Below the pieces are notes generated by a model, which saw only the letters and a list, made by a program, of their open reading frames with translations, ran no database searches and was not told the DNA's origin. A stretch of DNA of 64,000 bases from Gammaproteobacteria bacterium (lineage in GTDB: Bacteria; Pseudomonadota; Gammaproteobacteria; SZUA-229): contig JASBSR010000024.1 in the NCBI GenBank assembly GCA_030148865.1, positions 1 to 64,000 of the forward strand. The letters are read 5' to 3'. Position 1 is the first letter of the stretch. Each line of letters opens with the position of its first letter. A program made the position numbers and the translations under genes. Positions 5,427 through 54,911 of this stretch are shown here, piece by piece.

Positions 5427-6863
5427 ATGACTAAAGCGACAAAAAAATCCGGAACCAGAACCGCAAAGCCAAAACTCGCGCAGACCAATCAGGCCTGGGG
5501 CGGGCGGTTTACTGAAAAAACCGACGCCTTTGTCGAAACCTTCACCGCTTCGGTGGAATTCGATCAGCGTATGTATCAACAAGACATTACTGGTTCGCGT
5601 GCGCACGCGAATATGCTGGCAAAAATTGGCGTACTCTCCAGCAAAGATTTGAGTGCCATCTATCAGGGCCTTGATCAGATTGAGCAGGAAATCAGCAGCG
5701 GCAAATTCAAATGGTCGCACGCACGCGAAGATCTGCACATGAACATCGAAGCGCGACTCACCGAAATTATTGGTGATGCCGGCAAGCGTCTGCACACTGG
5801 GCGTTCGCGCAACGACCAGGTAGCGACCGACATCCGGCTTTATCTACGCGATCAGATTGACATTATTGTGCAGCAAATCGTGCATTTGCAAAGCGGTTTG
5901 CTCGATGTCGCCGAGCGCGAAGCCGATACTATCCTGCCCGGCTTTACCCATTTACAGGTGGCGCAACCGGTGACGTTTGGTCATCATCTGCTGGCCTGGT
6001 TTGAAATGCTGGTACGTGATGCTACGCGTTTGCAGGACTGTCGCGCGCGCCTGAATCAATGCCCACTGGGTGCCGCCGCGCTCGCTGGCACCACTTACCC
6101 GATCGATCGCAAAATGACAGCGACTGAGCTTGGCTTTGTGGCGCCCACAGCCAACTCGCTGGACTCGGTTAGTGACCGTGATTTTGCCATCGAGTTTTGC
6201 GCGGCGGCGGCGATTCTGATCACGCATCTCTCGCGCATGTCAGAGGAACTGATTATCTGGTCCTCGGCACAATTTGATTACATTGATCTACCGGATCGGT
6301 TTTGTACTGGCTCTTCGATCATGCCGCAGAAAAAAAATCCCGACGTCCCTGAGCTGGTGCGCGGCAAAACCGGGCGCGTCAACGGCAATCTGATTAGTTT
6401 ATTAACCCTGATGAAAGCCCAGCCACTGGCTTATAACAAGGATAATCAGGAAGACAAAGAGCCGCTGTTCGATACCATTGATACTGTGCAGGGGTGCTTG
6501 CGTGCCTTTGGTGACATGATTCCAGCGCTGCGCTGCAAACCCGACAAGATGTACGCTTCGGCACAACAGGGGTTTTCGACCGCGACTGATCTCGCCGATT
6601 ATCTGGTGCGCAAAGGCCTGGCGTTTCGGGATGCTCACGAAGTGGTGGGCAGGGCAGTGGCGTACGGAATTGAAACCCGGAAAGACCTGAGTGAGATGAG
6701 TCTCGCCGAGCTGCAAAAATTTTCCGGAAAAATCAGCGCCGACGTGACTAAAGCACTGACCCTCGAAGGCTCGGTCAGTGCGCGCAATCATATTGGTGGT
6801 ACGGCGCCGAAGCAGGTGCGTGCTGCAGTTAAACGCGCGCGGAAAAAACTCAGCTTGTCCTAA
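5427..6863 (+). CDS. argH: Argininosuccinate lyase
   Basis: 478 residues. It cleaves argininosuccinate to arginine and fumarate, the last arginine-biosynthesis step, in the cytosol as a homotetramer. The fumarase/aspartase superfamily signature [12 protein letters not shown] carries the catalytic serine loop. The substrate region [12 protein letters not shown] and the motif [13 protein letters not shown] are also clear. The start at MTKATKKSG (5427) is chosen because homology begins with [12 protein letters not shown] about 28 residues later. The upstream in-frame extension runs across the divergent kinase start and has no homology. The lysine-rich N-terminal tail is somewhat longer than usual. 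Confidence 0.95.
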
Positions 6864-41986: not shown

Positions 41987-43300
41987 GTGACATTTATTCA
42001 GCAAGTCATGGGTCCGTCTGTCAGTCGTGTGCTGGCAGGCGGGCTCCTGCTATGGGGGACCCTGTTTTCAGCGCAGGCCAGAGAATGGCAGGTGGCACCG
42101 GGTCACGGTGTATTACAGGCCGCGATCAATGCGGCGCATAGCGGTGACACGCTGATTCTGTCTTCGGGGATTTACTATGGTCCGGTGAATATTCACCGGA
42201 GTCTGAGTATGCTGGGCAATAACGCCAGTGTGATCAACGGCGAAGACTCGACACATGTGATAACAGTATCAGCCCCTGATGTGCTGATTAAAAATCTGCA
42301 TATCGAGCATTCCGGTAACGACCCGGTCAGCGAGGACAGCGGCATCTTTGTGACCGATGCCGGTGATCGTTCGCGGATTGAAGCCAATTATTTTGAAAAT
42401 AACCTCATTGGTATTTATTTAAAAGGACCAGAGTCAGTCGTGGTCAGCCATAATATTATTGTGGGCAGTCGTGATCAGCGGATAAATGATCGTGGCAATG
42501 GCATCTATTTATGGAATACTCCGGGATCCGTGATTGAAGGTAATACGGTTCGTTACGGTCGTGATGGTATTTTTGTAACCAGCAGTCGTAACAATGTGTT
42601 CCGCGGCAATCAGCTGCGCGATTTACGTTTTGGCATACATTATATGTACACTAACGATAGCGAAGTGAGCAATAATATCTCGATCAATAATCATGTTGGC
42701 TATGCCCTGATGTTTTCGCATCGTTTACAAATTAAAAATAACCGCTCACTGGATGATCATGAGCGCGGCATGTTTTTTAATTTTGCAAACTATTCGGAGA
42801 TAGACGGCAATCAGGTCATCAGTGGCGAAAACGGCATTAACGAAAAATGCGTGTTTATATATAACAGTAATTTTAATCAAATTGCTAATAACAGATTCGA
42901 GGGCTGTCAGATCGGAATTCACTTTACGGCTGGTTCAGAAAGCAATGAGATTTATGCAAATGCATTTATCGATAATCGGCATCAGGTGAAATACGTGGGG
43001 ACACGACATATCGAGTGGTCAAAAAACGGTCGCGGCAATTACTGGAGCGATAATCTCACGTTTGATATTGATGGCAACGGCATCGCTGATCAACCATACC
43101 GGCCTAATGACCTGGTAGACCAGATTATCTGGCGGCATCCGTTGGCCAAGCTGCTACTGAATAGTCCGGCAGTGCAGATATTAAAATGGGCGCAGTCCGA
43201 ATTTCCCGGCATTCACCCCGGTGGCGTAACGGACAGCGCGCCGCTGATGCTGGCGCCACCAGTGAGCTTCGCTGTGCCAACAGCAATGTCGGGTGGCTAA
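41987..43300 (+). CDS. nosD: Copper-maturation protein NosD
   Basis: 437 residues from GTG 41987; ATG 42008 is an alternative, and neither has a good ribosome-binding site. A signal peptide ends near AQA. The mature protein is a right-handed parallel beta-helix of CASH repeats (NNVFRGNQLRDLRFGIHYMYTNDS, NNHVGYALMF). NosD delivers copper/sulfur to apo-NosZ for CuZ assembly together with NosF and NosY. The stop overlaps the possible GTG start of nosF. Confidence 0.94.
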   Translation: MTFIQQVMGPSVSRVLAGGLLLWGTLFSAQAREWQVAPGHGVLQAAINAAHSGDTLILSSGIYYGPVNIHRSLSMLGNNASVINGEDSTHVITVSAPDVLIKNLHIEHSGNDPVSEDSGIFVTDAGDRSRIEANYFENNLIGIYLKGPESVVVSHNIIVGSRDQRINDRGNGIYLWNTPGSVIEGNTVRYGRDGIFVTSSRNNVFRGNQLRDLRFGIHYMYTNDSEVSNNISINNHVGYALMFSHRLQIKNNRSLDDHERGMFFNFANYSEIDGNQVISGENGINEKCVFIYNSNFNQIANNRFEGCQIGIHFTAGSESNEIYANAFIDNRHQVKYVGTRHIEWSKNGRGNYWSDNLTFDIDGNGIADQPYRPNDLVDQIIWRHPLAKLLLNSPAVQILKWAQSEFPGIHPGGVTDSAPLMLAPPVSFAVPTAMSGG

Positions 43301-43307
43301 ACTAAAC

Positions 43308-44234
43308 ATGGCAAATAAGCGTGTGATTTCATTGCACAGTGTTGCCAAACAGTACGGCAATGAAACTGTGGTGCGCGATCTTAGCCTGAGCGTGCAGGCC
43401 GGTGAATGTGTTGTGCTGGTTGGCCACAATGGCGCAGGCAAGACCACATTGATGAAGTTGATGCTGGGGCTGACACGACCGACGTCGGGCAAAGTCGAAG
43501 TGCTGGCAGGCAATCCCGCCCTGAGAACTGCGGTCGCGCAGCGTAAGGCACTGGGGTATTTGCCCGAAAGCGTGGCCTTTTATGAAGCCATGACGGGACG
43601 CGAAGTGCTGACATTTTATGCGCGCCTGAAAAGCGTAGCCAATACACAAACAGAGAAGCTGTTGCAGCTGGTGGGGCTTGGTGCTGCGGCGCAGCGACGC
43701 GTGGCCACCTATTCAAAAGGTATGCGGCAACGCCTGGGTCTGGCGCAGGCCTTGCTCGGTGAGCCGCGGCTACTGTTTCTCGATGAGCCTACCACCGGGC
43801 TTGACCCTTCATTACGCCAGGATTTTTACCAGCTGATTGATGCCATGCACCAAAAAGGCGTGACCTCGCTGATTTCATCGCATGCGCTCAACGAAGTCGA
43901 AGCCAGAGCCAGTCGTTTCGTAATTATGAAAGCCGGTACCATGGTCGCCTGCGGTAGTCTCGATGAGCTTTATGCGCAGGCGGCCTTGCCAGCACAGGTG
44001 CGCATCAGCGTGACACCGGGTCAGACGACTCGGGTGGCGGAACGTCTGGGCACAGCCGTTAACATTGCCGAGCTGAACCACCAGAGCCTGAGTCTGTGGT
44101 GTAGCAATGGTGAAAAAATGCCGTTGATCCGACGCATTAGCGAACTTGGTGAAGTGGTATGTGATATCCAGATCACGCCACCACGGCTGGATGAAGTGTA
44201 TAAATATTTTATGCGCGGAGATTCAGCATCATGA
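43308..44234 (+). CDS. nosF: ABC transporter ATPase NosF
   Basis: 308 residues from ATG 43308; a GTG at 43293 is possible. Walker A is GHNGAGKTT, the signature TYSKGMRQRLGLAQ and Walker B LLFLDEPTTGLD, followed by an H-loop in SSHAL. It pairs with NosY to energise the NosD maturation step. The stop overlaps the nosY start by four bases. Confidence 0.95.
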   Translation: MANKRVISLHSVAKQYGNETVVRDLSLSVQAGECVVLVGHNGAGKTTLMKLMLGLTRPTSGKVEVLAGNPALRTAVAQRKALGYLPESVAFYEAMTGREVLTFYARLKSVANTQTEKLLQLVGLGAAAQRRVATYSKGMRQRLGLAQALLGEPRLLFLDEPTTGLDPSLRQDFYQLIDAMHQKGVTSLISSHALNEVEARASRFVIMKAGTMVACGSLDELYAQAALPAQVRISVTPGQTTRVAERLGTAVNIAELNHQSLSLWCSNGEKMPLIRRISELGEVVCDIQITPPRLDEVYKYFMRGDSAS

Positions 44235-45058
44235 GACTGTTGTGGGTACTGGCACTCAAGGAACTGCGTGATGGTTTGCGCAATCGCTGGATTGCCGCCA
44301 CGATCCTGTTGCTGGGCGCACTGGCGCTGGTGTTGTCCATGCTGGGTTCAGCGCCAATCGGATCGGTGCGCGCGAGTGCACTCGACATCAGTGTGATTAG
44401 CCTGGCGAGTTTGAGCGTGTATCTGATCCCGCTGATTGCTCTGATGCTGTCATTTGATACGCTGGTTGGTGAGTTCGAACGCGGCACCATGCTGTTGTTG
44501 CTAACCTATCCGGTAACACGCGGGCAGGTCATTCTGGGCAAGTTTATGGGGCACGTCATGATTATACTGGTTGCCATCCTTGCCGGTTATGGTGGTGCCC
44601 TGCTCATCATGATTGCCGTGAACGGTGGCAGCACAGAAGGCTGGCAGGCGTATCTTCTGATGATGCTGAGCTCACTGCTGCTGGGCGCAATTTTTATTGC
44701 GCTGGGCTATCTGGTCAGTGTGCTGGTGAAAGAACGCGCTACCGCGGCAGGGTCGGCAATCGGTCTATGGCTGGTGTTTGTTGTGCTCTACGATTTATTG
44801 CTGTTCGGTGCGCTGATGCTGGATCAGGGCCAGATGCTTGGTCAGCAACTGTTTGCCATGCTGATGCTGGTCAGTCCGACAGATACCTACCGCATACTTA
44901 ACTTGAGTGTATTCGAGGGTGTCAGTCAGGCAGCGGGGATAGCGGGAGTTGCCAGTGGTGCTGGGATGAGCAGTTATTTGCTAATCAGCGTTATGTTGTT
45001 GTGGTTGATCGTGCCCTTAACAACAACAGCGCTGGTATTTCAACGTCGGGAACTTTAG
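44231..45058 (+). CDS. nosY: ABC transporter permease NosY
   Basis: 275 residues, an integral membrane protein with about six helices and the typical NosY opening LRDGLRNRWIAATILLLG. The segment FERGTMLLLLTYPVTRGQVILGKF is characteristic of ABC-2-type permeases. Forms the membrane part of NosFY. It is coupled to nosF by a four-base overlap. Confidence 0.93.
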   Translation: MRLLWVLALKELRDGLRNRWIAATILLLGALALVLSMLGSAPIGSVRASALDISVISLASLSVYLIPLIALMLSFDTLVGEFERGTMLLLLTYPVTRGQVILGKFMGHVMIILVAILAGYGGALLIMIAVNGGSTEGWQAYLLMMLSSLLLGAIFIALGYLVSVLVKERATAAGSAIGLWLVFVVLYDLLLFGALMLDQGQMLGQQLFAMLMLVSPTDTYRILNLSVFEGVSQAAGIAGVASGAGMSSYLLISVMLLWLIVPLTTTALVFQRREL

Positions 45059-45076
45059 TGTCGGATAAAACCGCGT

Positions 45077-45562
45077 ATGCGTAAATCATATTATCTTGTG
45101 TTTGTTCTGGCATTAGCCGCCTGCGAAAAAAATCAGCCTGCCGCAGTGCCGCTGCCGCAAACCCTGACGCGCGACGCCAATGGTTATTATTGTCTGATGA
45201 CTGTGCTTAACCATAGCGGGCCCAAGGCGCAGATAATTCTTGATGACCGGCAGCCAGCGCTATGGTTTACCTCGGTGCGAGACATGATTGCATTCACCCG
45301 GTCGGCCGAAGAACCCAAAAACATCGCGGTGATCTACGTCAATGACATGACTGACGCCGACTGGGATCATCCGGGAGTCGATAACTGGATAGACGCACAT
45401 AAGGCCTGGTACGTGCTGGGCAGTGGTCGCGCAGGTGGTATGGGCGCAGCAGAGGTCGTGCCTTTTGCGACAGCCATCAGCGCCGAGCTGTTTGCCAAAA
45501 AGCAGGGCGGGGTGGTGTATACGTTTGCCGCTATTCCGCCGGGAGCGGTGCAGTCAGAATAA
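45077..45562 (+). CDS. nosL: Copper-chaperone lipoprotein NosL
   Basis: 161 residues. Signal and lipobox LALAAC give a lipidated cysteine at residue 16. The copper site of NosL is normally a C-G-M motif; here the equivalent is NGYYCLMTVL, which keeps the Cys and Met but has Leu for Gly. The segment SGRAGGMGAAEVVPF is family-typical. NosL binds Cu(I) and hands it to the NosDFY machine. It is the last recognised gene of the nos operon. Confidence 0.92.
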   Translation: MRKSYYLVFVLALAACEKNQPAAVPLPQTLTRDANGYYCLMTVLNHSGPKAQIILDDRQPALWFTSVRDMIAFTRSAEEPKNIAVIYVNDMTDADWDHPGVDNWIDAHKAWYVLGSGRAGGMGAAEVVPFATAISAELFAKKQGGVVYTFAAIPPGAVQSE

Positions 45563-46569: not shown

Positions 46570-47751
46570 CTATTGTTTAAGCTTCATTTCCAGTTGTAAC
46601 CAGATTTTTCTGGTGTCGGCGGAAAAGGTATCAGCATCGTAACTGGCATATTTGGCTAGCACGGTAAATGTATCGTCGAGCTTTTTAGACGCCAGCAGGT
46701 CCAGCTCGGTGCCATAGTCAGCGCTGCTCTGGTCAGCACTGAAGCTGTGGTAGATACCGACCAGGCCAATACCGGCAACTTTAGTGACAGCTTTCAGGTA
46801 AGTATCGACCAGGCCATTTGCCGGTGTCGCAAGAAACTTGTCAGCCCAGCCATTGAAAGCGTGTTTGGTGGCAAGTGGTGTCTGGAAGGCGGCAGTGCCG
46901 TTGTCACTGCCCAGGGTTTCCATAGCAACAAACAGTTTTGTTGTGTCATCAACTGTGTAGCCTAGTTCGATCATGCTGTAACTGGCATCGAAGCTGGTGG
47001 TTCTATCTGCATAGTCAGCTTGTTTGGCGTATTCGAGTCGATATAACAGGTGATTGAACGCGCCGCTGTAATAACCGCCTAGTGTACTGGTTGCGGTATT
47101 CGGTGTGGCAGCATCATCGAGTAAATACGCATACGTCACCAGCTTGCCAGCGCCGATATTGGCAAAGCTGGCATTGAACAGACTGGTATTGGTATAGATT
47201 TCTTTGCCCAAAATGTTGTTGATTTTCTGAATATTCACCGCATCGAGCGAAACATCTTTTGTCGGCGTTATGCTGAAGCGCAGCGCATCAAAGGTTTGTT
47301 CATTCTGCCGCCAGCCGACATTGCCAACAAAGCGTGCATTGTCATAGATGATACGTTGCCGACCGTATTTTGCGGTGATTGCAGCAGAAATTTTATAGTT
47401 TATATATGCCTGATTAACTTCTGTACCTGCCGGGTCGGCCACGGTGGCAAACTGGGTTTGGCCATTGTTCGTGGAATTATAATCAGGCTCGCCGAGTCGT
47501 GTGATATGATCAAAATCAATATACGCGAAGACAGGGAATGCTGTCGAAGTTGAAAAGCCAAAACGGGTTCGCAAAGTTGAAGCGGTTGCATCCTGTTTGA
47601 CGCTGTCATCTACGGTTTCGTAGCGGTAGCGCGCATTGAGAGAGGCGTTGCCTTCGCTAAAAGCCTGTTCAAGTGTTCCGGCGGTAGCGAGAAAAGATTG
47701 ACTGCCCAGTAACAGTGCGGGCACGAGTGCATAAAAGTGCGATGAATTCAT
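46570..47751 (-). CDS. Outer-membrane porin of the alginate-export type, in the nitrate island
   Basis: 393 residues from ATG 47751. A signal peptide (about residues 1-24) precedes a beta-barrel with repeated amphipathic strands (LNARYRYETVDDS, KYGRQRIIYDNARFVGNVGWRQNEQTFDAL), the Alginate_exp pattern. It ends in a C-terminal strand (WLQLEMKLKQ). Such porins occur next to nitrate-assimilation genes in marine gammaproteobacteria and are likely a nitrate or organic anion channel. It is divergent from the ANTAR gene. A sigma54 promoter (47966-47980, reverse strand) and a roughly 200-base leader precede it. Confidence 0.8.
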   Translation of the reverse strand: MNSSHFYALVPALLLGSQSFLATAGTLEQAFSEGNASLNARYRYETVDDSVKQDATASTLRTRFGFSTSTAFPVFAYIDFDHITRLGEPDYNSTNNGQTQFATVADPAGTEVNQAYINYKISAAITAKYGRQRIIYDNARFVGNVGWRQNEQTFDALRFSITPTKDVSLDAVNIQKINNILGKEIYTNTSLFNASFANIGAGKLVTYAYLLDDAATPNTATSTLGGYYSGAFNHLLYRLEYAKQADYADRTTSFDASYSMIELGYTVDDTTKLFVAMETLGSDNGTAAFQTPLATKHAFNGWADKFLATPANGLVDTYLKAVTKVAGIGLVGIYHSFSADQSSADYGTELDLLASKKLDDTFTVLAKYASYDADTFSADTRKIWLQLEMKLKQ

Positions 47752-47935
47752 ATTTGTAGATCCTGCATTATGGCAATAATGTGTTCTGTACATCAGCAAG
47801 TTGCTGTGAACAGGCTAAATCCGTTCTCTGCCGGTAATCAGAAACACAGTTAAATCAATCATTAGCCGAAAGAGAGGCACGCTCTAACTCTGATGGTTTA
47901 ATCAACTACGTCGTAAGGGGCTCGGCATCGAATGG

Positions 47936-47965: not shown

Positions 47966-47980
47966 GCAAACAATATGCCA
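47966..47980 (-). promoter_or_regulatory. Sigma54 promoter for the porin gene
   Basis: Reverse strand: TGGCAT-ATTGT-TTGC, matching the -24/-12 consensus TGGCAC-N5-TTGC at all but one of the core positions. It points at the porin gene. With C at -12, +1 falls near 47954. Confidence 0.65.
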
Positions 47981-48047: not shown

Positions 48048-48062
48048 TGGCATCGAAATTGC
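48048..48062 (+). promoter_or_regulatory. Sigma54 promoter for the ANTAR regulator/globin pair
   Basis: TGGCAT-CGAAA-TTGC, correct -24/-12 spacing, with predicted +1 near 48074, 26 bases before the ATG. It is divergent from the porin promoter, so a shared enhancer-binding protein is likely. Confidence 0.65.
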
Positions 48063-48099: not shown

Positions 48100-48675
48100 A
48101 TGAATATAATTGTAATCGCCGATAGTCTCGAATATTCGCAACCACTACTGCAGGCGGCTGGCGAAAGCGGGTATCGGATTGTAAAATTTATCAGCCAAAA
48201 CGAAGAAGCTGCGCCATTTGTAAAAACGGCAAATGCAGATGCGGTCATCATGGTGAGTGCTGAAATTGCTCACGATGAGCTCCGTATCATGCGGTCTATA
48301 GCGCAAACCTGCCCGATGCCAGTGCTGGTGCTCACCTGTGATGCAAAGCCGGAGTCAGTGGAATCTGCTCTCAAAGCGGGCGCTTCTTCGTATGTGATCA
48401 ACGGTCACGATCTTGCCGCCCGGCTGGGGTATTTATTGCAGGTGGCGATGGTGCGCTTCAAGCATCAGTTGTTGCTGGAGAATGAGCTGGAAACTATGCG
48501 CACAGCACTGGTGCAAAGAAAGATCATTGAAAAGGCAAAAGGCATCATTATGAAGCAGCGCAACCTCGATGAGGACAATGCGTATAAAGCAATTCGTAAG
48601 CTGGCGATGAATCACAATAAAAAAATAGGCGAAGTCGCGGGTCAAATTGTGACAGCAGCAGAAATTTTACTTTAA
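48100..48675 (+). CDS. ANTAR-domain regulator (NasT-like) with a degenerate receiver
   Basis: 191 residues. The N-terminal receiver-like domain lacks the phospho-acceptor aspartate: position 52 is valine (ADAVIMVSAE) and the acidic pair is A7-D8. The C-terminal ANTAR RNA-binding domain is intact (LVQRKIIEKAKGIIMKQRNLDEDNAYKAIRK). NasT-type proteins bind two-hexaloop RNA motifs and prevent transcription termination in nitrate-assimilation leaders. In other species NasT is held inactive by the nitrate sensor NasS, but no nasS lies next to it here. A globin gene follows 21 bases later in the same unit. Its likely target is the nrtA leader at 51377-51462. Confidence 0.8.
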   Translation: MNIIVIADSLEYSQPLLQAAGESGYRIVKFISQNEEAAPFVKTANADAVIMVSAEIAHDELRIMRSIAQTCPMPVLVLTCDAKPESVESALKAGASSYVINGHDLAARLGYLLQVAMVRFKHQLLLENELETMRTALVQRKIIEKAKGIIMKQRNLDEDNAYKAIRKLAMNHNKKIGEVAGQIVTAAEILL

Positions 48676-48696: not shown

Positions 48697-49116
48697 ATGA
48701 CACCACGACAAAAAGAACTGGTAAAAAGCACCTGGGTTAATGTGGTGCCGATATCAGAACAGGCAGCTGAGCTTTTTTATGGCCGCCTGTTTGAGCTGGA
48801 CCCTGGTGTGAAGTCGATGTTCAAGGGGGATATGAAAGCGCAGGGCGCAAAGCTGATGAAAACCATCGGCCTCGCGGTTAGCGCGCTGGATAACCTGGAA
48901 CCGTTAGTAGAAACACTGAAAGACCTGGGTGCCAATCATGTTGTCTACGGGGTGAAAGACGCCGATTACGACACGGTGGCAGCGGCGCTGTTATGGACTC
49001 TGGAACAAGGTCTCGGCGCTGCGTTCACTGACGAGGTGAAAAATGCCTGGGCGGTAGCGTATACCACGCTGGCTGATGTGATGAAAGCGGGTGCGGCAGA
49101 AGCGCAGGCTGCCTGA
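48697..49116 (+). CDS. Single-domain globin
   Basis: 139 residues of a bacterial haemoglobin-like globin. The proximal haem histidine is H81 (LGANHVVYGV). Tyr28 (LFYGRLFELDP) fits the B10 and Gln49 the E7 distal positions, which suits O2/NO chemistry. There is no reductase domain, so it is not a flavohaemoglobin. Its place after a NasT-like regulator under a sigma54 promoter suggests protection from NO or nitrite stress during nitrate assimilation. The ribosome-binding site is GGGAGTGAG. Confidence 0.85.
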   Translation: MTPRQKELVKSTWVNVVPISEQAAELFYGRLFELDPGVKSMFKGDMKAQGAKLMKTIGLAVSALDNLEPLVETLKDLGANHVVYGVKDADYDTVAAALLWTLEQGLGAAFTDEVKNAWAVAYTTLADVMKAGAAEAQAA

Positions 49117-51247: not shown

Positions 51248-51264
51248 TGCACCATCGACGTGCG
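51248..51264. promoter_or_regulatory. NtrC-like binding site upstream of nrtA
   Basis: TGCACC-ATCGA-CGTGCG: the left half-site is perfect and four of six bases of the right half match the NtrC consensus TGCACC-N5-GGTGCA. It lies about 80 bases before the -24 element at 51346, a normal distance for an enhancer. Confidence 0.45.
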
Positions 51265-51345: not shown

Positions 51346-51361
51346 TGGCACAGCATTTGCT
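51346..51361 (+). promoter_or_regulatory. Sigma54 promoter for nrtABC
   Basis: TGGCAC-AGCAT-TTGCT, a full match to the -24/-12 consensus with exact spacing. With C at -12, +1 is near 51372, giving a leader of about 115 bases before the nrtA ATG. Confidence 0.8.
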
Positions 51362-51376
51362 TATATACCACTAACA

Positions 51377-51420
51377 CGACTAATGGTGGTCGCTATTGAG
51401 TTCCTCGGGTAGCGGCACCC
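51377..51420 (+). ncRNA. ANTAR-type dual-hexaloop RNA element in the nrtA leader
   Basis: P1: CGACT (51377-51381), loop AATGGT, GGTCG (51388-51392), with one T-G pair next to the loop. P2: GGGT (51407-51410), loop AGCGGC, ACCC (51417-51420). Both loops have six bases, with A first and G fourth, the signature of the ANTAR-binding RNA motif. A 14-base linker separates them. The ACCC arm of P2 is also the 5' arm of the terminator at 51413-51462, so binding at P2 would block the terminator. Confidence 0.7.
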
Positions 51421-51462
51421 TGTTACTGGTTTATGGTTTCCAGTGATGGGGTGTCGTTTTTT
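51413..51462 (+). terminator. Intrinsic terminator/attenuator in the nrtA leader
   Basis: 5' arm GGCACCC (51414-51420) pairs with GGGTGTC (51449-51455); the upper stem TTACTGG (51423-51429) pairs with CCAGTGA (51440-51446) around a 10-base loop. Six T follow at 51457-51462. It lies before the nrtA ribosome-binding site, so it would stop transcription unless antitermination occurs. Confidence 0.75.
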
Positions 51463-51487
51463 CGGCGAGGAGATTGGAGTATTTAGA

Positions 51488-52903
51488 ATGAGAGCTGTAT
51501 TCTTCAAACCACACACTGCTAACACTGGCGCTGTTTCAAAATCGCTTACCTGTATTCAAATCATTGTAATGCTGGCTGGCATCATGAGTATGGGGCTGGC
51601 TGGAGCTGAAACCAAGGGCCTCGAAAAAGAAGAGCTGAAATTTGGCTTTATCAAATTAACCGACATGGCACCGCTGGCAATTGCCTATGAAAAAGGTTAC
51701 TTCGAAGATGAAGGCCTGTACGTTACCATCGAGCCACAGGCAAACTGGAAAATATTACTGGATCGCGTCATCACCGGTGAGCTGGATGGTGCACACATGC
51801 TGGCGGGTCAGCCGCTGGGTGCGACCATCGGCTTTGGTACCAAAGCTCACATCGTCACTGCATTTTCGATGGATTTGAATGGCAATGGTATTACGGTATC
51901 GAACGCCGTCTGGCAGCAGATGAAACCCAATATCCCAAAAGACAAAAACGGTAAAGTTGTTCACCCAATCAAGGCGGATTATCTCAAGCCAGTCGTTGAC
52001 AAATTCAAGCGCGAAGGCAAACCGTTTAAAATGGGTATGGTGTTTCCGGTCTCGACACATAACTATGAACTACGCTACTGGCTGGCAGCCGGGGGCATTA
52101 ATCCGGGTTACTATGCGCCGAAAAAAGGCGATACTTCTGGCACCCTCAACGCAGACGCCCTGTTGTCTGTGACCCCGCCACCGCAAATGCCTTCCACCAT
52201 GGAAGCGGGTACGATCTATGGTTATTGTGTCGGCGAACCCTGGAATCAGCAGGCCGTGTTTATGGGTATAGGTGTGCCAGTAATTACTGACTATGAAATC
52301 TGGAAAGATAATCCAGAAAAAGTATTTGGTGTAACTGATGAATGGGCGAAAAAATATCCTAACACGCACAAAGCCGTATTAAAGGCATTGATACGTGCGG
52401 CCATGTGGCTAGATAAAAATGGTCTGGAAAATCGCAAAGAAGCCGCGAAAATTCTGGCTCGTCCCGAATATGTGGGCGCGGACTATGATGTTATCGCGAA
52501 TTCGATGACCGGCACCTTCGAATATGAAAAAGGCGACAAGCGGTCAGTACCCGACTTTAATGTTTTTTTCAGAAACAACGCAACGTATCCGTATTATTCA
52601 GATGCCATCTGGTATCTCACCCAAATGCGCCGCTGGGGACAGATTGCAGACGAGAAGTCGGATAGCTGGTATGTCGATACCGCGAAAAGTGTGTATCGCC
52701 CGGATTTATACGCTGAAGCTGCAAAAGAACTGATCAAAGAAGGTAAGGCAAATGCCAAAGACTTTCCGAATTTCGACAAAGAAACTGGATTTAAACCGCC
52801 ACAAAGTGAGTTCATCGACAATATTACTTACGACGGAACCCAGCCGAACGCGTATCTGAAGAAATTCAAGATAGGTTTGAAAGGCAAAGACACCGTTAAA
52901 TAG
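51488..52903 (+). CDS. nrtA: Nitrate ABC transporter substrate-binding protein
   Basis: 471 residues from ATG 51488 with GGAG upstream; an in-frame ATG at 51443 lies inside the leader terminator and is not used. A signal peptide ends near GLAGA. The mature protein is a NrtA/SsuA-type periplasmic binding protein with [26 protein letters not shown] and [18 protein letters not shown], the segments forming the nitrate/nitrite site. It is the first gene of nrtABC and is controlled by the sigma54/ANTAR leader above. Confidence 0.93.
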
Positions 52904-52972: not shown

Positions 52973-53971
52973 ATGAAAACTTTGATACTAAATATGTTGG
53001 CTAAATCTATAGCAGCGTTACAGGACAGAGTGAGCAAGCTTGATCGCCAGAAGTTGATACGGAACATTATGTTGCCGTTGTCTGCTTTTTTTATATTCCT
53101 GTTGTTGTGGGATGGTGCGGCGTCTCATATCGACACATCTTTGGGCAAACTGCCCGGCCCGGTACAGGTCTGGCAACAGGCGACTAATCTGGTCGCAGAG
53201 CACGAACGAGAACGAGACAAAGAAAGCGCGTTTTACCTGAGGCAGGAAAAACGAAATGCAATAAAACTTGAAGCTGACCCAGATGCCGAGGTTAAAATTA
53301 GGCCTTACACTGGCAAGCCGACATTTTTTGATCAGATACTCACTAGCCTGGGAACTGTGTTTGCCGGTTTTATGCTCGGTATCATAATCGCGATACCGGT
53401 GGGTATTGTCACCGGCCTGAACCAGTCGGTATATCGTGCGATTAATCCTATTGTACAAATATTGAAGCCGGTGTCGCCATTAGCATGGCTGCCCATAGTA
53501 ACCATGGTCGTCAGCGCGGTGTATGTTTCTGACGCCCCGTTTTTTGCCAAGTCGTTCGTGACGTCTGCTTTTACAGTGATGTTGTGTTGTTTATGGCCAA
53601 CCTTAATCAATACAGCCGTTGGTGTATCGTCTGTCAATAAAGATTTAATCAATGTTTCAAAAGTGCTGAGACTGGGATGGTTTACTCATGTCTGGAAAAT
53701 TGTATTGCCGTCATCGGTGCCCATGATATTTACAGGTCTGCGTCTCTCGCTGAGCATTGGCTGGATGGTATTAATTGCGGCTGAAATGCTGGCGCAGAAT
53801 CCAGGTCTGGGCAAGTTTGTCTGGGATGAGTTTCAGAACGGCAGTTCAAACTCATTGGGAAGAATTATGGTGGCGGTGTTCGCCATAGGCATTATTGGTT
53901 TTGCACTCGACTGGATGATGCTGATGTTGCAGAAAAAAGTGAGCTGGGACAAGACTGCTGTGCTGCGTTAG
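52973..53971 (+). CDS. nrtB: Nitrate ABC transporter permease
   Basis: 332 residues, about six transmembrane helices, with the inner-membrane EAA-type loop AAEMLAQNPGLGKFVWDEF that contacts the ATPase. The segment KPVSPLAWLPIVTMV is typical of NrtB/SsuC permeases. The hydrophilic N-terminal region (about residues 55-115, DKESAFYLRQEKRNAIKLEAD) is an insertion found in many nitrate permeases. A short hairpin-prone gap of 69 bases separates it from nrtA. Confidence 0.93.
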   Translation: MKTLILNMLAKSIAALQDRVSKLDRQKLIRNIMLPLSAFFIFLLLWDGAASHIDTSLGKLPGPVQVWQQATNLVAEHERERDKESAFYLRQEKRNAIKLEADPDAEVKIRPYTGKPTFFDQILTSLGTVFAGFMLGIIIAIPVGIVTGLNQSVYRAINPIVQILKPVSPLAWLPIVTMVVSAVYVSDAPFFAKSFVTSAFTVMLCCLWPTLINTAVGVSSVNKDLINVSKVLRLGWFTHVWKIVLPSSVPMIFTGLRLSLSIGWMVLIAAEMLAQNPGLGKFVWDEFQNGSSNSLGRIMVAVFAIGIIGFALDWMMLMLQKKVSWDKTAVLR

Positions 53972-54011: not shown

Positions 54012-54911
54012 ATGAGCAAAGATCATTTATCAATTGACCATGTGTCAATGGAGTTTCCGCTACCAGCTGGCGGTGCGTTCAAGGCGCTGGATAGTGTCAA
54101 TATAAAAATTAAAAAAGGCGAGTTTGTCTCTTTAATCGGGCATTCCGGTTGTGGTAAATCAACCGTGCTCAATATTGTCGCTGGTTTATACCAGGCCAGC
54201 GCCGGCGGTGTGATACTCGATGGCCTGGAGGTTAATGAGCCGGCACCGGATCGTGCAGTGGTGTTCCAGAATCATTCTTTGTTGCCGTGGTTGACCGCGT
54301 ATCAGAATGTCGAGCTGGCGGTCAAACAGGTTTTTAAGAAACAAAAATCGAAAGCCGAAACACGTGAGTGGATTGAGCATAACCTCAGACTGGTACACAT
54401 GGATCACGCTATGAACAAACGCCCTGACGAATTGTCCGGAGGCATGAAGCAACGCGTCGGCATTGCGCGCGCACTGGCGATGCAGCCAAAAGTGCTGCTA
54501 ATGGACGAACCCTTCGGCGCGCTCGATGCCTTAACGCGTGCGCATATGCAGGATTCGTTGATGGAAATCCAGGCAGAATTAAAAAATACTGTGATCATGA
54601 TTACGCACGATGTTGATGAAGCCGTATTGTTGTCAGATAGAATTGTGATGATGACGAACGGTCCGGCTGCAACCATCGGTGAGGTGCTGGAAATTGATCT
54701 GGCGCGACCACGCGAGCGCGTTACCATGGCTGACACCCCGGAATACAATCATTATCGTGCGCAGGTACTGAAATTTTTATATGAGCGTCAGCGCAACCCG
54801 GAAGCCCGGCATGCAGGTGGTAGCAGCGATATCGGAAAAAAGCCTCAGGCTGAAGCTGGTGCAACGCAGGCAGATGCCGCAACACACGCCGAAAATCAGG
54901 CCGCAGCCTGA
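54012..54911 (+). CDS. nrtC: Nitrate ABC transporter ATPase (single domain)
   Basis: 299 residues. Walker A GHSGCGKST, signature LSGGMKQRVGIARAL, Walker B VLLMDEPFGALD and the switch histidine in MITHDVDEAV are intact. It lacks the C-terminal NrtA-like domain of cyanobacterial NrtC and so resembles NrtD. The C-terminal 35 residues are Ala/Gln-rich and probably disordered. It completes the nitrate importer. Confidence 0.93.
   Translation: MSKDHLSIDHVSMEFPLPAGGAFKALDSVNIKIKKGEFVSLIGHSGCGKSTVLNIVAGLYQASAGGVILDGLEVNEPAPDRAVVFQNHSLLPWLTAYQNVELAVKQVFKKQKSKAETREWIEHNLRLVHMDHAMNKRPDELSGGMKQRVGIARALAMQPKVLLMDEPFGALDALTRAHMQDSLMEIQAELKNTVIMITHDVDEAVLLSDRIVMMTNGPAATIGEVLEIDLARPRERVTMADTPEYNHYRAQVLKFLYERQRNPEARHAGGSSDIGKKPQAEAGATQADAATHAENQAAA

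Follow-up and report, generated by a model that had tools for sequence, protein, structure and literature searches.

How nitrate is signalled, if at all, to the antiterminator of a nitrate-transport operon is the question raised by a locus in which an ANTAR-type switch appears to have been kept without the usual nitrate sensor, NasS. The window, that is, the whole stretch of 64,000 nt that was analysed (contig JASBSR010000024.1 of assembly GCA_030148865.1, positions 1-64,000 of the forward strand), comes from a Gammaproteobacteria bacterium (SZUA-229) with a 2.68-Mb, 93% complete assembly; features are on the forward strand unless stated otherwise. The operon downstream of the leader is nrtABC. 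nrtA (51488-52903, with an ATG at 51488) codes for a nitrate-binding protein (PF13379) with a signal-peptide-like N-terminus, nrtB (52973-53971) for a permease that matches TIGR01183 with a score under the cut-off, and nrtC (54012-54911) for an ATPase that matches TIGR01184 with a score over the cut-off. About 2.8 kb 5' of the leader is nasT (48100-48675), the only ANTAR gene found in the genome. As in the NasT family, its product has a receiver-like domain followed by a C-terminal ANTAR domain (residues 131-184; PF03861, 70.1 bits), in which the conserved positions are kept in the alignment.

A pair of hairpins with "A" and "G" at loop positions 1 and 4 (A1/G4) constitutes an ANTAR target (PMC3369931), and the overlap of such a dual-hairpin target with a terminator has been described for EutV, NasR, and AmiR (PMC3369931, PMC7496416). 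In Paracoccus, NasT binds the nasA leader and is inhibited by NasS, and nas expression becomes constitutive once nasS is lost (PMC3795266); nasT of Paracoccus is nitrogen-controlled (PMC5424462). In Bradyrhizobium, NasT is an antiterminator that acts on nos genes (PMC6759348).

A putative sigma54-type -24/-12 promoter, TGGCACAGCATTTGC (TGGCAC-AGCAT-TTGC), which matches the pattern exactly, is located at 51346-51360. Taken by itself, the pattern has no significance in the window (eight sites with up to one mismatch versus 9.1 expected); the site carries weight because of its position and its conservation, as most related nrtA leaders have a sigma54-like sequence at a similar position. Transcription would be expected to start near 51372. 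An NtrC-like site, GCACCATCGACGTGC (51249-51263), lies 97 bp upstream of the -24 element and has one mismatch to GCACYN5RGTGC. By itself, this pattern is also at chance level in the window; such sites (up to two mismatches, up to 200 bp upstream of the -24 element) were found in 75 of 91 nrtA leaders, with about 10 expected.

Two hairpins follow, P1 (51377-51392, CGACT-AATGGT-GGTCG) and P2 (51407-51420, GGGT-AGCGGC-ACCC), separated by a 14-nt linker (51393-51406). Each has a hexaloop with A1 and G4, as a preliminary description had claimed, and this is the dual-hairpin form of an ANTAR target. An intrinsic terminator (51413-51462) shares bases with P2, so that only one of the two can form, another feature of such targets; it consists of a 17-pair stem (51413-51429/51440-51456) and six T residues (51457-51462). 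Direct reading agreed in every position and base with what had been assigned to the promoter, both hairpins, the terminator, the T-run, and the nrtA start. The earlier statement that the terminator reuses the ACCC of P2 is right but incomplete, in that its 5' arm starts with the P2 loop bases CGGC, followed by the ACCC of the P2 3' arm. Loop bases 4-6 of P2 were captured by the terminator in 34 of 35 leaders (window included). Formation of the terminator would therefore conceal the recognition base G4 besides disrupting the P2 stem. The region 51372-51487 has a predicted folding energy of -46.6 kcal/mol (z -4.7), and no shuffled sequence was equally stable.

A descriptor comprising two A..G.. 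hairpins and a terminator that reuses P2 gave a single match on both strands of the 64 kb, at 51382/51411/51457, and one match in 400 Markov-1 random windows. At both gathering and permissive thresholds, no Rfam family reached its cut-off at the window leader or at 16 related loci. The narK RNA (RF03032), the 5' part of which resembles the window promoter region, scored 18.8 bits at the leader against a cut-off of 43.2, a score mostly driven by the promoter, and the leader is not a member by this score. Covariance model R1, built from 12 relatives with the window left out, detected the leader with 19.0 bits (E 0.0099 in 64 kb), which is among the lower scores of the leaders scored. A second model, R2, for which all training loci came from outside the set of 30 from related genomes, missed the site with filters on; switching the filters off gave 8.3 bits. 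Another match, at 5522-5556 (12.3 bits with a covariance model), was at chance level and was dropped. The best match for a second target in the genome (14 bits) falls inside the murG-murC region and was taken as chance, in a search that is insensitive because it did not rank the known leader either.

The nrtA leaders compared came from 80 named loci and from related whole genomes, which supplied 30 loci including that of the window. Many of those from Gammaproteobacteria share the same order of elements: an NtrC-like site, a sigma54 site, P1, P2, an overlapping terminator, and nrtA. The typical P2 of relatives is GGAC-AAAGGC-GTCC, and apparent P1-P2 linkers range from about 4 to 75 nt. The alignment of related leaders suggested in the preliminary description revealed compensatory changes in both P1 and P2. 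In the seed alignment, the rows of which were partly selected for pairing, 98.3% of the cells pair and both-side changes numbered 35, compared to 8.6 in shuffles. When loci were instead selected irrespective of pairing (by a loop A..GGC and a T-run), stems of at least 3 bp were present in 28 of 41 loci, versus 13.2 when the flanks were dealt among loci and 3.0 when they were scrambled. The leader appears to be part of a large, sequence-diverse natural set of ANTAR targets before nrtA, which no Rfam family recognised here and which may be useful for mapping recognition by NasT.

The motif also tends to occur together with ANTAR genes. R2 found a leader in 18 of 23 nrtA genomes carrying an ANTAR gene, while none of the six readable nrtA leaders of ANTAR-less genomes had the motif or a convincing terminator; five of those six genomes belong to one genus, so they represent about two independent losses. 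At five loci of one genus (L004, L008, L009, L022, and L024), nrtA and a sigma54-like promoter are kept and the ANTAR gene, the motif, and the terminator are absent; L004 retains a P1-like stem that has lost the loop G4. Because the layout is rare, R1 matches the leader, relatives conserve it with compensatory changes, and the six readable leaders of ANTAR-less genomes lack the motif, the ANTAR-type reading offered earlier is well supported, and we consider it highly probable that the leader before nrtABC is a NasT-dependent ANTAR antitermination leader.

Nonetheless, the leader is unusual, and possibly weak, since it lacks C:G closing pairs and prediction favours a different fold for its bare P1-P2 segment. 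P1 is closed by U.G and P2 by U-A where C:G is usual, and the window has the only U-A closer among 28 P2 stems, the other 27 being C-G. C:G closing pairs were preferred in NasR SELEX (PMC7496416), while the published search definition of ANTAR targets demands stems of at least 3 bp and A1/G4 (PMC3369931); a preference that lies outside the definition lowers confidence in tight binding and leaves membership intact. The 14-nt linker is of a length that impaired induction by EutV (PMC3369931). In addition, when the bare 51372-51424 RNA is folded, the predicted ground state is not P1 plus P2 but a hairpin at 51385-51419 (-16.4 kcal/mol), which disrupts both of them and is 4.8 kcal/mol better. In 39 of the 42 leaders compared, P1 plus P2 lay within 1 kcal/mol of the lowest-energy fold, and the window is the strongest exception. 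In G024, the relative whose NrtA is closest (84%), an ANTAR gene is lacking, and the leader retains a P1-like stem without the loop G4 but shows no clear terminator. Together with the low covariance-model score, these features might suggest a leader in decay, that is, one derived from an ANTAR target but now weakly or no longer recognised, with the terminator mainly attenuating nrtABC. We consider such decay improbable. The leader retains A1/G4, P2, the terminator, and the promoter, nasT is intact, and both alternative stems accommodate the atypical closing position of P2: A51417 pairs with either U51410 (P2) or U51452 (terminator). This fits a single substitution pattern at the closing position that would satisfy both folds, a match that decay would not be expected to keep. 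The site may be weak, or it may be matched to a divergent NasT. The phrase "full switch" in the preliminary description therefore holds in that all parts are present, but is slightly strong, as the closing pairs are atypical and NasS is missing.

It is less probable still that a plain intrinsic terminator simply lies between the promoter and nrtA, with hairpins that arose by chance and with no ANTAR control. The hairpins are indeed short (5 and 4 bp), and a genome-wide model search left the site unranked at first look, when 150 of 593 candidates had been scored. The one match in 400 random windows, the conservation and covariation over many genera, and the co-occurrence with NasT all argue against chance. 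Least probable is that the hairpin at 51385-51419 is functional as a third, ligand- or protein-controlled state masking both loops until released: prior to synthesis of the terminator, it is the fold predicted to be most stable, but it is no more stable than dinucleotide shuffles (z -1.2), a competing fold is better by at least 1 kcal/mol in only 3 of 42 leaders, and the hairpin may be incidental.

With a NasT-dependent leader as the preferred reading, its setting without NasS becomes the point worth following. NasS is a cytoplasmic paralogue of NrtA that scores about 240-325 bits with PF13379 in genomes possessing it; none was detected in the 93% complete assembly, where NrtA is the sole PF13379 protein found. 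When 12 genomes with a NasS-less locus were searched whole, 11 had one strong PF13379 protein each and the remaining one had two nrtA copies and a fragment, while all five NasS-bearing controls had two PF13379 proteins; in some relatives, the absence of NasS rests on a score threshold set post hoc. The receiver-like domain of the window NasT scores 22.8 bits with PF00072, under the cut-off, and its DxxSPxRD motif is lost, with VSAEIAHD at residues 52-59 and a valine (V52) in place of an aspartate at the expected phospho-acceptor position. Of the two marks of a NasS-NasT system, a NasS gene (usually a neighbour of nasT) was thus not detected, and the receiver motif is lost. SPxRD was present in 30 of 30 NasT proteins accompanied by NasS and in 3 of 33 without it (Fisher p 7e-15), a motif defined on the same data that were tested. 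The rows are also related, with nine label changes on the tree, only two of which are forced by supported branches, and an independent-pairs test had only two supported pairs, too few for significance. Judging from these sequences, NasT without NasS appears to recur in many genomes, nearly always with loss of the receiver motif. No mention of NasS-free NasT systems was found in the literature searched, which is not proof of novelty; the combination of NasS-free NasT and receiver-motif loss is the newest part of this analysis, and the leader itself joins an already known kind.

A working model can be proposed as follows. Under nitrogen limitation, NtrC and sigma54 would initiate transcription at about 51372. 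If NasT is absent, the growing transcript would fold into the terminator, the 5' arm of which claims the P2 3' arm together with loop bases 4-6, and transcription would end at the U-run. A NasT dimer gripping the A1/G4 loops of both hairpins would keep P2 and block the terminator, such that nrtABC is transcribed. The sequence parts, their conservation and covariation, the co-occurrence with NasT, and the lack of a detectable NasS were observed directly; NasT binding, antitermination, and the signal are deduced. With no NasS detected, what gates NasT is probably its own synthesis under NtrC/sigma54, forming a feed-forward AND gate, or some other partner, rather than a classical nitrate-sensitive NasS-NasT complex. 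A sigma54-like promoter, TGGCATCGAAATTGC, matches the pattern before nasT at 48048-48062, and sigma54-like sites precede nasT at 5 of 29 loci with NasS and 13 of 30 without, with about 0.1 or fewer expected per group. These sites would fit a feed-forward gate with both NasT and its target under the control of NtrC. Given that Paracoccus without nasS expresses nas constitutively (PMC3795266), NasS-free species should have either lost the nitrate signal or replaced the sensor. There is perhaps an even chance that NasS-free NasT recurs in Gammaproteobacteria as a second type of ANTAR control, in which SPxRD, perhaps a NasS-facing surface, erodes after NasS loss, while the leader stays under selection and NasT is controlled either through its NtrC/sigma54-dependent production (a coherent feed-forward loop) or by another sensor.

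As in the NasS-NasT systems of Azotobacter nasAB, Paracoccus nasA, and Bradyrhizobium nos, a receiver plus ANTAR protein is encoded near its target, and leader hairpins precede nitrate-assimilation genes; unlike in those systems, the target is nrtABC, NasS was not detected, and the DxxSPxRD motif is eroded. Klebsiella NasR-nasF combines Ntr-controlled initiation (NtrA/sigma54 and NtrC) with ANTAR antitermination through a dual-hairpin leader at a nitrate-assimilation operon, as is predicted for the window. However, NasR senses nitrate via a NIT domain, to which the window protein has no match, and the C:G closing pairs that NasR prefers are absent. The RNA architecture and the presumed recognition by a dimer are the same as in EutV/eut leaders, but EutV is activated by phosphorylation, whereas the window NasT lacks the phospho-acceptor aspartate and its leader has the 14-nt linker.

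Several neighbouring features may also be recorded. Elsewhere in the same genome (L156, 6158-13128), nirB and nasA-like genes are followed by an iron-sulfur/NrfD-like fusion gene, and the region upstream of this nirB-nasA operon has neither a sigma54 site nor ANTAR tandem hairpins. In the window, a reverse-strand porin gene (46570-47799) has an exact sigma54-type site upstream, at 47966-47980 on the same strand, and in relatives, porin genes of the same type again lie beside nasT or nrtC. The region 41987-45562, upstream of the porin gene, contains genes that give the impression of nos accessory functions (nosD, nosF, nosY, and nosL). A single-domain bacterial globin gene (48697-49116; PF00042) begins 21 nt past nasT and may have a role in NO protection; a globin gene between nasT and nrtA is also found at the relatives' loci L148 and L149. 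In both of these, a second ANTAR leader (L148, 1513-1550; L149, 1335-1390) is located immediately 3' of nasT and precedes an FAD-dependent reductase and a cytochrome block, of which the globin gene is the last. The adjacency of nasT and the globin gene in the window looks as if the reductase/cytochrome block had been lost.
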